Below, one piece after another: positions 10,777 to 14,550 of a stretch of 34,842 nt of DNA; the first letter of the stretch is position 1, and each line of letters opens with the position of its first letter. A program made the position numbers and the translations under genes. The DNA comes from Natronococcus sp. A-GB7. GTDB lineage: Archaea; Halobacteriota; Halobacteria; Halobacteriales; Natrialbaceae. Under the pieces are notes generated by a model that did not search any database, was not told the DNA's origin, and worked only from the letters and a program-made list of their open reading frames with translations. The stretch lies in NCBI RefSeq assembly GCF_029688865.1, contig NZ_JARUKV010000037.1, forward strand, positions 1 through 34,842, read 5' to 3'.

Positions 10777-11148
10777 TCAGCCCTCGGTCGGGAACGTCTC
10801 GTGGAGCAGATCGTGTGCGTCACCGAGCCCGTCGACGACGCTCTCCCCCTGGGCTCGTAGCCGACGGACGGCGCGCTCGGCGTCGCGAACGGCCAGTAGT
10901 CGACCGCGGGTGTAATTGTACTCCGGATCGTCGGCGTCCATCGACGCGACGGTCTCCTCGAGGTCGACGAGCGCGGCGTCGAGGTGGCGTTCGATCTCCG
11001 CGAGGCTCTTCGCTTCGGCGAGCCCCTCGATGGGACCCTCGAGATGGCCCTCGAGTTCCTTCTCCGCGTGGTCGCGGGCGTGCTCGTCCTCGACGCCGAG
11101 GACGGTCATCAGTCCGAGTCGAAGCGCTTCGATTTCGTGACAGCTCAT
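10777..11148 (-). CDS. DUF3209-type protein at the end of the cobalamin operon
   Basis: A 123-aa all-helical acidic protein beginning M-S-C-H-E-I-E-A-L-R-L-G. It fits my recollection of the DUF3209 family, which I associate with cbiX in haloarchaeal cobalamin clusters. No catalytic motif is evident. The N-terminal C3-H4 and further His residues (H23, H27, H35) could bind a metal, but that is speculation. It is the last gene of the leftward operon, 63 bp after cbiX. Its position suggests an accessory role in cobalt handling or the cobaltochelatase step. Confidence 0.75.
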   Translation of the reverse strand: MSCHEIEALRLGLMTVLGVEDEHARDHAEKELEGHLEGPIEGLAEAKSLAEIERHLDAALVDLEETVASMDADDPEYNYTRGRLLAVRDAERAVRRLRAQGESVVDGLGDAHDLLHETFPTEG

Positions 11149-11211: not shown

Positions 11212-12438
11212 CTACAGGGTCTGATCGACGAGATCACTGACGAGACGGTCTCGCTCCAGATGGTCGGAAACGATCCGGTCGGCGTCTTCGGCCGCGACGT
11301 CGCCGTACCAGATCCCGTCGGGGTAGACCGCGACCATCGGCCCGTCGCCGCAGCGACCCAGACACGACGAGCGGGTGATGCGGACGTCGCAGTGCTCGGC
11401 GTCGCGAGCCTCCTGGCGGATGCGTTCGAGCACCGCGGACGACCCCATGTCGGCACAGGTCCGGTTCGTACAGACCGCGACGTGTTTTTCCGGCGCGTCG
11501 TGGCTGTGGGGCTCGTCGTCGACGTCGTCCCGATCGGCGTGTGCCTCCTGGTGGGCCAGCGCGCGCAGCATGGCTCGCGCGCCGCCGACGTCCTCCTCGT
11601 ACCCCTCGAGATCGACCTTGTACTTGCACGTGTCACAGGACATCTCGACGCTGTCGGTGCGCCCCTCCTGCCAGCGGTCGGCGAGGACGTCGAGCAGCCG
11701 GGAGTCCGTTCCGAGGGGATCGCCGGCGAGCGCGTCGACGTACGGGTACTGGTCGTCGAACTCGCTCGTCCAGTCCCGAACGCGCTGCGTGAGAACGCCG
11801 TCTCCGAGCATGTACGGCAGGACGACGACCGCATCCGGACGGTGCTTCGAGAGCCCGTGCAGCGTGTCCTCGAGCGTGGGTTCGGTGACGCCGACGAACG
11901 TCGCTTCGGCACGGTCGAACGTCCGCCCCTCGTACAGCAGCCGGGCGAGCTTGTGGACGTCGCCGTTCGCGTCGGGGTCGCTCGAGCCCCGACCACAGAG
12001 GACGACGGCGACGTCGTCCGCCGTTCGGTCGACGTCCAGTTCGGCCTCGACCGCACGAGCCCGATCGTCGAGCAGGTCGAGTATCGCCGGGTGGATGCCC
12101 AGATGTGACCCGTTGTCGATCTCGAGGGCGTGTGCCGCCCGCGCCCGCTCGATCGCCAGCGGCACGTCGTTTTTGACGTGACTCGCGGCAAACAGCGAGC
12201 AGTGGACGACCGTCACCCGCGACACGAGCGTCGCGAGCTCCGCGAACGCCTCGTCGATCGACGGCGCCGCGAGTTCGAGAAACGCGACGTCGACCGGGAT
12301 CCCCAGCCGCGACTCGAGGTCGGCGGCCAGCTTCCGTACTTGCTGGTTCGACTTCTCCCGACGGGAGCCGTGACCGATCAGCAAAACCGCCTCGTCGTCG
12401 AACGCCGCCGCAGGCGCGGTGTCGTCTGGCGTACTCAT
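11212..12438 (-). CDS. cbiX: CbiX sirohydrochlorin cobaltochelatase with C-terminal [2Fe-2S] ferredoxin domain
   Basis: A 408-aa class II chelatase that should insert Co2+ into sirohydrochlorin. The first CbiX domain (about 15-125) has H-G-S-R with H23 and S-L-F-A-A-S-H-V-K-N with H87, the two metal-binding His. The second domain (about 140-260) has lost both: it reads G-R-G-S-S-D and L-P-Y-M-L-G-D-G, so only the N-terminal half looks active. After a C-D-T-C pair (268, 271) and a His-bearing linker, a thioredoxin-like [2Fe-2S] ferredoxin domain carries C323, C328, C359 and C363 (S-C-L-G-R-C). The frame runs upstream to 12582; the ATG at 12438 precedes the first CbiX strand. It lies 58 bp after the LAGLIDADG-like gene. 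Confidence 0.92.
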   Translation of the reverse strand: MSTPDDTAPAAAFDDEAVLLIGHGSRREKSNQQVRKLAADLESRLGIPVDVAFLELAAPSIDEAFAELATLVSRVTVVHCSLFAASHVKNDVPLAIERARAAHALEIDNGSHLGIHPAILDLLDDRARAVEAELDVDRTADDVAVVLCGRGSSDPDANGDVHKLARLLYEGRTFDRAEATFVGVTEPTLEDTLHGLSKHRPDAVVVLPYMLGDGVLTQRVRDWTSEFDDQYPYVDALAGDPLGTDSRLLDVLADRWQEGRTDSVEMSCDTCKYKVDLEGYEEDVGGARAMLRALAHQEAHADRDDVDDEPHSHDAPEKHVAVCTNRTCADMGSSAVLERIRQEARDAEHCDVRITRSSCLGRCGDGPMVAVYPDGIWYGDVAAEDADRIVSDHLERDRLVSDLVDQTL

Positions 12439-12496: not shown

Positions 12497-13234
12497 TTAC
12501 GGCTCGTCGTACGCCTCGGCCTGCTCGAGACTCCGCTCGAGCTTGCGGCGACGACTCGGTGCGTAGAGTCCGGTCTCCGCACAGTCCTCGTAGAGCCACG
12601 CTCCGAACGCGGGCGCGTCGTCGTCGTCGATCCCGAACCAGTAGCCGCCCGAGGAGGTCTCCGAGAGATCGTCGACGGACGCCTCGACTGGACACGCCGC
12701 GATCAGCTCCCGGGTCAACTCGAGCAGGTCCCGGTCGTCGTGGACGAACGAGATCCCGACGGTGCCGCTCGAGGATTTGAAACAGATCGTGCCACAGCCC
12801 TCGAGAAGTCCTCTGAGCAGCTCTCGGTCGCACCCGCTGAACGCGCCGAACCGGTAGTTCCCGCGGCCGTCGACGGGAAGTCCGAGTGCGCCGCTGCGAC
12901 CGAGCAGTCCCTCGGTACCGTCCGCGTGGTCCTCGCCGCTCCCTTTCCCGTCGTCCCCGATCGAGAGCGTGTACTCGTCCTCGGTGCGGGTGATCGACGC
13001 GTCGTGGGCGTACTCGCGGCTCGTCGTCTCGTGCTCGAGGTCGCCGCCAGCAATGGCCGCGAGCACCCGTGCAGAGCGCTCGTCGTTAGTGGTGACCTCG
13101 ATGTTGCTGTCTGAAACCTCCCCGCTCCCGGCGACGTGGCCCCAGAAGTACGCGCTCGCGGGGTGACCCGCCAGCGGATCCGCGGGAGCTTCGATCTCGA
13201 GGGCGGCGTCCTCCTGCTCGACCGACTCGCTCAT
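12497..13234 (-). CDS. LAGLIDADG-fold-like protein of the cobalamin operon, nuclease residues missing
   Basis: A 245-aa protein of unassigned function. Two helix-plus-sheet repeats resemble a double-motif LAGLIDADG protein: Y-F-W-G-H-V-A-G-S-G-E-V at 29-40 and L-L-R-G-L-L-E-G-C-G-T-I at 139-150. Each is followed by strands (I-E-V-T-T-N-D and V-G-I-S-F-V-H-D-D) and helices, and the second half ends in F-G-A-W-L-Y-E-D and a basic S-R-R-R-K-L-E. In homing endonucleases the motif ends in an acidic residue (G-D-G); here it is G-S-G and G-C-G, so DNA cleavage is unlikely. The start overlaps the ferredoxin stop (ATGA) behind a GGAGGTGG, so it is co-translated with B12 genes. It may be a domesticated binding protein or a regulator; the fold call is mine. 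Confidence 0.7.
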   Translation of the reverse strand: MSESVEQEDAALEIEAPADPLAGHPASAYFWGHVAGSGEVSDSNIEVTTNDERSARVLAAIAGGDLEHETTSREYAHDASITRTEDEYTLSIGDDGKGSGEDHADGTEGLLGRSGALGLPVDGRGNYRFGAFSGCDRELLRGLLEGCGTICFKSSSGTVGISFVHDDRDLLELTRELIAACPVEASVDDLSETSSGGYWFGIDDDDAPAFGAWLYEDCAETGLYAPSRRRKLERSLEQAEAYDEP

Positions 13235-13497
13235 CCGTCCACCTCCTCGACGACGATGGCGTCGGTCGGGCAGGCCGCGGCGGCTTGCCGGGCCTCGTCG
13301 ATGCGGTCGTCGTCGAACGTCGCGACGACCCGGTCGGCGGTATCGGTCACGTCGCCCTCGCAGTCGTAGATCGGATCCGCGTCGGGATCGATCGTCGCGA
13401 GGCCGTCCTCGCCCTCGACGAAGCGCGGATCGCGCGTCAGGCAGGCGAAGATACCGTCGCAGGCGTCCTTCTCGATGGTGATCTCGTAGCGTGACAT
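13231..13497 (-). CDS. Small [3Fe-4S]/[4Fe-4S]-type ferredoxin of the cobalamin operon
   Basis: An 88-aa acidic ferredoxin. Cluster cysteines C13 and C19 (C-D-G-I-F-A-C) and C76 (A-A-A-C-P-T-D-A-I) match single-cluster ferredoxins with one ligand position lost, which usually means a [3Fe-4S] centre. C46 lies in an inserted loop and could be the fourth ligand. It sits between cbiH and the LAGLIDADG-like gene with a 15-bp gap upstream and ATGA coupling downstream. In this setting it probably donates electrons to a corrin-ring reduction or ring-contraction step; no CbiJ or CobK reductase is seen in the window. Confidence 0.85.
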   Translation of the reverse strand: MSRYEITIEKDACDGIFACLTRDPRFVEGEDGLATIDPDADPIYDCEGDVTDTADRVVATFDDDRIDEARQAAAACPTDAIVVEEVDG

Positions 13498-13512: not shown

Positions 13513-14550
13513 TTAGTAGTCGTACTTCGTCTCGTAGCCCCGCGGCGTCACCATCCGGTCGTCCCAGACGTAGGTGTCCTCAGTGCCGACGAGGATCGTG
13601 GTCGTCATGTCGATAATCTCGCTCTCTCCCAGCTCCTCGAGTTCGCCGAGTTCGGTGATCAGCACCTGCTCGTCCTCGCGGCCGGCGCCGTGGACGATGC
13701 CGACGGGCGTCTCCTCGTCCCGGTGGGTGGTGAGGATCTCGCAGCACTTCCGGAAGTTCTCCCGGCGCTTGCGGCTCCAGGGGTTGTAGATCGTGATCGT
13801 GAAGTTCTCGCTCGCCACGGAGTGCAGCCGCGACTCGATCTCGGGCATCGGCACGAGGTGATCCGACAGCGAGACCGAGACGGTGTCGTTGACGAGGGGA
13901 GCGCCCAGCCGGGCCGCACAGGACTGGGCCGCCGGAACGCCCGGAACGACGTCGAACTCGACCATCGACGCCGTCGCGCCCTTGGACTCGAGGATTTCGA
14001 GTGCGAGCCCGGCCAGCGCGTAGACGTTCGGGTCGCCGCTGCCGACGATGGCGACGTCGTTGCCCGCCAGCGTGCGATCGATCGACTCCTCCGTGCGGGA
14101 CACTTCGCCGCACATCGGTGTGTCGTAGATCTCGTCGGCCTGCTCGGTGATCTCGTCCGGAATGAGTTCGATGTAGGTGGTGTAACCGACGATGTGGTCG
14201 GCCTCGAGCAGCGCCGCCTTGGCGCGTTCGGTCATCCCCTCGGCGTGGCCGGGGCCGAGCCCGACGGCCGTCAGCTGGCCGGGCTCGGCGTCGAAGTCCG
14301 CGACGGTGGCGCCGACCTCCTGCTCGTGGGAGTCGCTCTCGTCGTCGGCATTCGAGGCGCCGCACGAACTCGAGGACGAGGCGGAACTCGACGCGCCACA
14401 CTTCGAGCCGCTCGAGTCGTCCGTACTGCTCGAGGCGCCGCAGTTGCTGCTCGAGGCGGTCCCCGCGTCGGTGGCGGTCTCGCTCGTATCGCTCGAGGAG
14501 GCGCCGCAGTTGGAAGTCGATTCGTCGTCGGTGTTGGTATCCGTACTCAT
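13513..14550 (-). CDS. cbiH: CbiH/CobJ-type precorrin-3B C17-methyltransferase with Cys-repeat N-terminus
   Basis: A 345-aa SAM-dependent tetrapyrrole methylase that should methylate C17 and drive ring contraction. The catalytic part begins near residue 88 with T-A-V-G-L-G-P-G. It has G-S-G-D-P-N-V-Y-A-L, V-V-P-G-V-P-A-A-Q and I-Y-N-P-W-S-R-K-R-R, typical of CbiH. About 85 residues precede it: a Ser/Thr/Asp-rich tail with four C-G-A-S-S/N units whose Cys are at 15, 37, 51 and 63. That tail is not part of the family and may bind metal or a cluster. The gene starts 8 bp after the second cbiH. Which paralogue carries the C17 activity cannot be told here. Confidence 0.9.
   Translation of the reverse strand: MSTDTNTDDESTSNCGASSSDTSETATDAGTASSSNCGASSSTDDSSGSKCGASSSASSSSSCGASNADDESDSHEQEVGATVADFDAEPGQLTAVGLGPGHAEGMTERAKAALLEADHIVGYTTYIELIPDEITEQADEIYDTPMCGEVSRTEESIDRTLAGNDVAIVGSGDPNVYALAGLALEILESKGATASMVEFDVVPGVPAAQSCAARLGAPLVNDTVSVSLSDHLVPMPEIESRLHSVASENFTITIYNPWSRKRRENFRKCCEILTTHRDEETPVGIVHGAGREDEQVLITELGELEELGESEIIDMTTTILVGTEDTYVWDDRMVTPRGYETKYDY

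Follow-up and report, generated by a model that had tools for sequence, protein, structure and literature searches.

Gene organisation of the locus

The window analysed here is the whole stretch of 34,842 nt from Natronococcus sp. A-GB7 (NZ_JARUKV010000037.1), to which all coordinates given without a locus prefix refer. Within it, the genes predicted to encode CbiH2, a ferredoxin, a protein hereafter called LAGL, the early cobaltochelatase CbiX in its long form and a DUF3209 protein follow each other in the direction of transcription (Table 1). The start codon of LAGL overlaps the stop codon of the ferredoxin gene in the tetranucleotide ATGA (13231-13234) and cbiX lies directly downstream; both the coupling and the position before cbiX had been described correctly in an earlier reading of this DNA (the sequence-only reading).

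Table 1. Genes, domains, motifs and residues considered at the LAGL locus.
Feature	Coordinates	Strand	Evidence
LAGL (P0001), nuclease-dead double-LAGLIDADG protein, 245 aa	12497..13234	-	ORF, AF2 model, Foldseek PDB, 128 homologues
First LAGLIDADG motif YFWGHVAGSGEV, residues 29-40; catalytic-acid position Ser37 (13124-13126)	13115..13150	-	sequence
Second LAGLIDADG motif LLRGLLEGCGTI, residues 139-150; catalytic-acid position Cys147 (12794-12796)	12785..12820	-	sequence
Cys151, invariant, forms CxxxC with Cys147	12782..12784	-	128/128 homologues
His77, invariant, loop between strands 65-74 and 82-93	13004..13006	-	128/128 homologues; model secondary structure
Ferredoxin, single-cluster (Fer4_15), ATGA-coupled to LAGL	13231..13497	-	Pfam PF13459 E 1e-13; Cys13, 19, 76 in 76/76
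Long CbiX, early cobaltochelatase, 408 aa, start ATG at 12438	11212..12438	-	Pfam CbiX E 3.7e-45
CbiX MxCxxC motif (MSCDTC, residues 266-271), Fe-S site in CbiXL	11626..11643	-	sequence; PMC7689651
C-terminal thioredoxin-like [2Fe-2S] domain of long CbiX, in the place of the poly-His tail	11263..11493	-	PF01257 E 4.3e-8, residues 316-392; comparison of CbiX forms
DUF3209 companion gene	10777..11148	-	PF11483 E 6e-52; conservation; fold = TTHB059 2ehw
CbiH2 (precorrin-3B C17-methyltransferase family), Cys-repeat N-terminal tail	13513..14550	-	TIGR01466 E 2.3e-90
Four CGAS repeats (Cys 15, 37, 51, 63) of the CbiH2 N-terminal tail	14353..14508	-	sequence

The order cbiH1 - cbiH2 - ferredoxin - LAGL - cbiX was kept in all 79 named loci, 76 of which carry the DUF3209 gene after cbiX. 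The synteny of LAGL with cbiX that had been expected across haloarchaea was therefore recovered. Furthermore, dN/dS values of 0.14-0.33 in comparison to close relatives indicate that LAGL is under purifying selection, and together with the fixed gene order they bear out the view that LAGL is a stable member of the cobalamin operon and not a stray homing endonuclease. Among the 393 genomes of the phylum searched, LAGL is confined to one order, and its annotated relatives are named “cobalamin biosynthesis protein” or “hypothetical protein”.

Predicted fold of LAGL

The AlphaFold model of LAGL, computed from a 61-row alignment (mean pLDDT 84.9, pTM 0.83), consists of two alpha-beta-beta-alpha-beta-beta units with a low-confidence linker at about residues 97-118. 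The first unit comprises helix 25-37, two strands, helix 52-62 and two further strands, the second helix 136-147, two strands, helix 168-179, one strand and a final helix. In the Foldseek comparison with the PDB all 45 best matches were LAGLIDADG proteins, 34 of them at E<=0.001, with WhiA (3hyi, 3.5e-6) ranking before I-Tsp061I, I-DmoI, the bI3 maturase and inteins. The double-LAGLIDADG topology proposed by the sequence-only reading is thus present in the model. Since the TM-scores are moderate (about 0.47), the assignment of the predicted fold to the double-LAGLIDADG class is regarded as secure, while that of its nearest member is not.

The sequence of LAGL gave a weak, sub-threshold match to the Pfam family LAGLIDADG_3 (PF14528; E 0.1), which is matched by 31 of 61 homologues (best E 2.2e-4); single-sequence searches of NCBIfam and of the PDB (phmmer) gave no match. 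The profile search of the PDB sequences yielded nothing beyond chance matches to an extracellular nuclease (E 0.45).

The rank of WhiA as top fold match would fit a protein that binds DNA and regulates the cobalamin cluster in the manner of WhiA, a role that the sequence-only reading had put forward. However, WhiA binds DNA via a separate helix-turn-helix (HTH) domain (PMC3781837), whereas the LAGL model ends in a single helix (226-243) without an HTH domain, and no HTH family was matched in Pfam. The net charge of LAGL (-0.135 per residue) is furthermore similar to that of the neighbouring enzymes, the gene is situated inside the operon and translationally coupled, and its loss goes with the type of CbiX, not with the cluster as such (see below). 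The proposed regulatory role is therefore unsupported and appears quite improbable, although the bare LAGLIDADG saddle might bind DNA by itself.

Loss of the catalytic acids and conserved residues

Both LAGLIDADG motifs are found at residues 29-40 and 139-150 as had been described from the sequence. The accompanying claim that the catalytic acids are replaced by serine and cysteine holds for Ser37 and Cys147 of the Natronococcus sp. A-GB7 protein; Ser37 is not a feature of the whole family, as position 37 is occupied by Ser in 69, Asp in 27, Gly in 14, Asn in 10 and Ala in 8 of the 128 homologues. Position 147, by contrast with this partial retention of an acid, is Cys in 126 homologues, Ser in one and Ala in one, and never Asp or Glu, so that no homologue has a complete pair of cleavage acids, in line with the loss proposed by the sequence-only reading. 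Presumably, position 147 is the place where the catalytic metal is held in the LAGLIDADG fold and position 151 belongs to the first saddle strand.

Besides Cys151 and His77, the residues Glu145, Ser162, Tyr215, Arg228 and Lys231 are invariant in all 128 homologues and Arg141 is nearly so. Two homologues, L058 (Ser) and L154 (Ala), represent natural variants that lack Cys147 and keep Cys151.

The LAGLIDADG fold and the aspartate retained at motif 1 in some lineages might be taken as signs that LAGL is a homing endonuclease, active now or until recently, whose place in the operon is fortuitous. Since motif 2 is never acidic, a normal nuclease is ruled out and we rejected this reading. The purifying selection likewise speaks against it, as does the occurrence of LAGL as a free-standing gene in one fixed slot in 79/79 loci, without an intron or intein and without scattered insertion sites; an active nuclease at this place is hardly conceivable. 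LAGL is a conserved, nuclease-dead, haloarchaeal family.

Co-occurrence of LAGL with the forms of CbiX

In the 392 genomes of the order, a cobalamin-cluster cbiX was detected in 200 and LAGL in 193, all of them within those 200. A set of 146 genomes of the order contained 55 with a long CbiX, of which 54 possess LAGL, and LAGL was never found without a long CbiX. The form of CbiX in LAGL carriers was checked at 159 loci (as against 193 LAGL-bearing genomes): the [2Fe-2S] domain is present at 156, and at the remaining three CbiX is either degenerate or truncated where a contig ends.

The seven genomes with cbiX and without LAGL (G020, G045, G047, G116, G528, G600 and G643) belong to four genera in four families. 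All seven encode a short CbiX that lacks the [2Fe-2S] domain and carries a poly-His tail with 12-40 histidines after the Cys motif. LAGL is thus strictly retained with the long CbiX and mutually exclusive with the poly-His-tailed CbiX, an association whose Fisher values are inflated by the kinship among the genomes. Among the roles offered by the sequence-only reading, these data favour the link to the chelatase or to cobalt.

In the CbiX tree the short forms f12 and f4 group together, that of G045 stands apart or joins them weakly, and the short form of G020 pairs with the long form of the same genome (87/91 support), so that the exceptions may derive from perhaps two or three origins. The cluster of G020 has the order cbiH2 - ferredoxin - short His-tailed cbiX - long cbiX - DUF3209 and contains no LAGL; in the four congeners of G020 the same slot is filled by LAGL. 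The second CbiX of G020 in this slot (L140:3703-4644) evolves fast, ends in a poly-His tail and is devoid of the [2Fe-2S] domain. Probably it arose by duplication of the long CbiX and thus independently of the other short forms. No other single observation hints as strongly as the G020 slot that LAGL and the His-tailed CbiX are interchangeable.

Outside the haloarchaea, Thermus possesses a long CbiX and DUF3209 with neither LAGL nor a His tail, which marks LAGL as a haloarchaeal addition that is not needed by the long CbiX everywhere.

The cobalamin cluster of G046 is dispersed over three contigs, and LAGL, the ferredoxin and the long CbiX are all kept. Its LAGL gene lies between two genes of the cation-efflux family (PF01545) and a rhodanese gene, in the same orientation and with short gaps, and the encoded protein is divergent (34% identity) and retains C147 and C151. 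This region (L159:10444-13453) is located away from the cobalamin genes.

The distribution of LAGL also bears on the proposal that the missing CbiD and CbiJ steps are supplied by genes without an assigned function in the cobalamin cluster of haloarchaea (PMC8305020). HVO_B0055 of Haloferax volcanii, one of the four unassigned cluster genes considered for these two gaps (PMC8305020), occupies the position of LAGL between a ferredoxin-type gene and cbiX1, and is equated with LAGL by gene order only. An assignment of LAGL to one of the two gaps would agree with this published synteny and with the absence of the CbiD (PF01888) and CbiJ (PF02571) profiles in 61/61 relatives. However, G020, G045 and G047 lack CbiD, CbiJ and LAGL alike; in G045 and G116, where LAGL is absent, cbiC, E, T, L, F, G, H1 and H2 are all retained, and the stretches of G047 that were read hold cbiC, E, G, H1 and H2. 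The gaps are thus bridged without LAGL in three genomes, which makes LAGL an improbable candidate for the missing ring enzyme, provided that the genomes without LAGL do synthesise B12 and did not gain some unrecognised substitute. Taking furthermore into account that LAGL matched neither CbiD nor CbiJ in Pfam and that its predicted fold is neither that of a methyltransferase nor that of a nucleotide-binding reductase, such an enzymatic function seems very unlikely.

Cysteine-bearing neighbours of LAGL

At LAGL-bearing loci CbiH2 possesses a low-complexity N-terminal tail with one to five Cys motifs, mostly CGAS or CGGS repeats, which may serve as a Cys-based metal-holding or docking tail. Tail cysteines were found in CbiH2 of every LAGL-bearing locus listed, including the Halonotius-type loci with a single GGCTA. 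In the six genomes whose sole CbiX is short, CbiH2 had no CGAS-type repeats, and the adjacent ferredoxin and DUF3209 were missing as well. The ferredoxin, LAGL, the long CbiX, DUF3209 and the Cys-tailed CbiH2 therefore go together, as opposed to one His-tailed CbiX.

The DUF3209 protein of haloarchaea has the invariant residues Cys3, His27, His55, His112 and His116, based on which it may be a rival candidate for a metal carrier or chaperone. Its fold search returned only its own structural-genomics relative TTHB059 (2ehw). The DUF3209 gene follows the gene of the long CbiX both in haloarchaea and in Thermus thermophilus (L181:7102-7464).

Two genomes, G560 and G708, encode a long CbiX with the [2Fe-2S] domain and without a recognisable MxCxxC motif (L167:1507-2685 and L168:1492-2685). 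Their LAGL proteins are only about 40% identical to that of Natronococcus sp. A-GB7.

A literature search on DUF3209, and on LAGLIDADG proteins in connection with cobalamin, returned nothing relevant.

Putative role in cobalt insertion

From the retention of LAGL with the long CbiX we infer that LAGL takes part in cobalt insertion. Our preferred explanation, to which we assign a probability of roughly 0.45, is that LAGL represents a domesticated, nuclease-dead double-LAGLIDADG accessory of early cobalt insertion in haloarchaea, working together with the long CbiX and its [2Fe-2S] domain. The place between the paired LAGLIDADG helices where the nuclease formerly held its metal would have been rebuilt as a thiolate site formed by Cys147, Cys151 and possibly His77. 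The two cysteines are putative ligands of cobalt or of a cluster, which is speculative and derived from their conservation in the alignment; the site would bind Co2+ or a metallocluster and hand it to CbiX. In the genomes without LAGL the poly-His tail of the short CbiX might do the same job. The extension of CbiXL contains both an Fe-S centre and a region rich in His, and is dispensable for the insertion itself; it has been proposed to store metal and to deliver it, and in the Co-CobW form of the cobalt chaperone CobW three thiols serve as ligands (PMC7689651). The setting of LAGL among cation-efflux genes in G046 likewise speaks for a link to metal. Most speculatively, the ferredoxin, the [2Fe-2S] domain of CbiX, the Cys tail of CbiH2 and DUF3209 could belong to the same delivery kit.

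Several observations stand against a role in cobalt insertion: the long CbiX and DUF3209 of Thermus manage without LAGL, DUF3209 with its invariant Cys and His residues competes for the part of the chaperone, the G046 homologue is divergent, and the exceptions amount to seven genomes only, of few origins.

The same cysteines might instead be redox or cluster ligands. LAGL would then act as a redox or substrate partner, either holding sirohydrochlorin or a cobalt-corrinoid intermediate in its saddle or coupling electrons from the ferredoxin to CbiX or CbiH2. This would be in accordance with the gene immediately upstream, which encodes a ferredoxin with conserved cysteines, and with the [2Fe-2S] domain of the long CbiX, and the residues Arg228, Lys231 and Arg141 could grip the carboxylates of a tetrapyrrole. 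The displacement of LAGL by a His-tailed CbiX, however, points to metal supply more than to redox chemistry, and we know of no LAGLIDADG protein with a tetrapyrrole-binding or redox-partner role. We consider such a function unlikely.

Within the preferred reading of LAGL as an accessory of cobalt insertion, a bolder version holds that a homing-endonuclease fold was converted into a cobalt-delivery protein, its two-metal site becoming a thiolate cobalt site that feeds the B12 chelatase and replaces the poly-His storage. This version is doubtful; if true, cobalt delivery would give the LAGLIDADG fold a task unrelated to nucleic acids, inside a Cys-based kit.

To our knowledge, few domesticated LAGLIDADG proteins have been recognised, and those known to us act on nucleic acids or form part of a regulator. 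LAGL is a domesticated LAGLIDADG protein tied to a metal-insertion enzyme, which suggests that the fold was recruited to help handle cobalt. New in the present analysis are the comparative data on LAGL and the CbiX forms that support the link to the chelatase. If, as these data indicate, LAGL has its place in cobalt insertion, probably together with the ferredoxin and DUF3209, the missing ring enzymes should be sought elsewhere.

Comparison with known systems

WhiA/DUF199 (3hyi, 3hyj) resembles LAGL in having a degenerate double-LAGLIDADG domain that lacks the nuclease residues and is fixed in the host genome. It differs by its C-terminal HTH domain and its function as a regulator in Gram-positive bacteria, whereas LAGL is characterised by the absence of an HTH domain, a conserved CxxxC motif and the link to the cobaltochelatase. 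The monomeric archaeal LAGLIDADG endonucleases I-DmoI and I-Tsp061I, the next-best matches in the PDB, share the single-chain two-repeat fold; they are mobile and possess two catalytic acids, in contrast to the never acidic second position of LAGL.

The His-rich C-terminal extension of CbiXL from Bacillus megaterium has a proposed function in the storage and delivery of metal at the same chelation step (PMC7689651), and the poly-His tail of CbiX is the alternative to LAGL in haloarchaea as judged by their mutual exclusion. However, this tail is a low-complexity poly-His stretch on the enzyme itself and is unrelated to LAGL in fold. CobW, a GTPase of the late CobNST route without homology to LAGL, may be comparable by analogy, the proposed likeness being the thiolate-based supply of Co2+ to a B12 cobaltochelatase.
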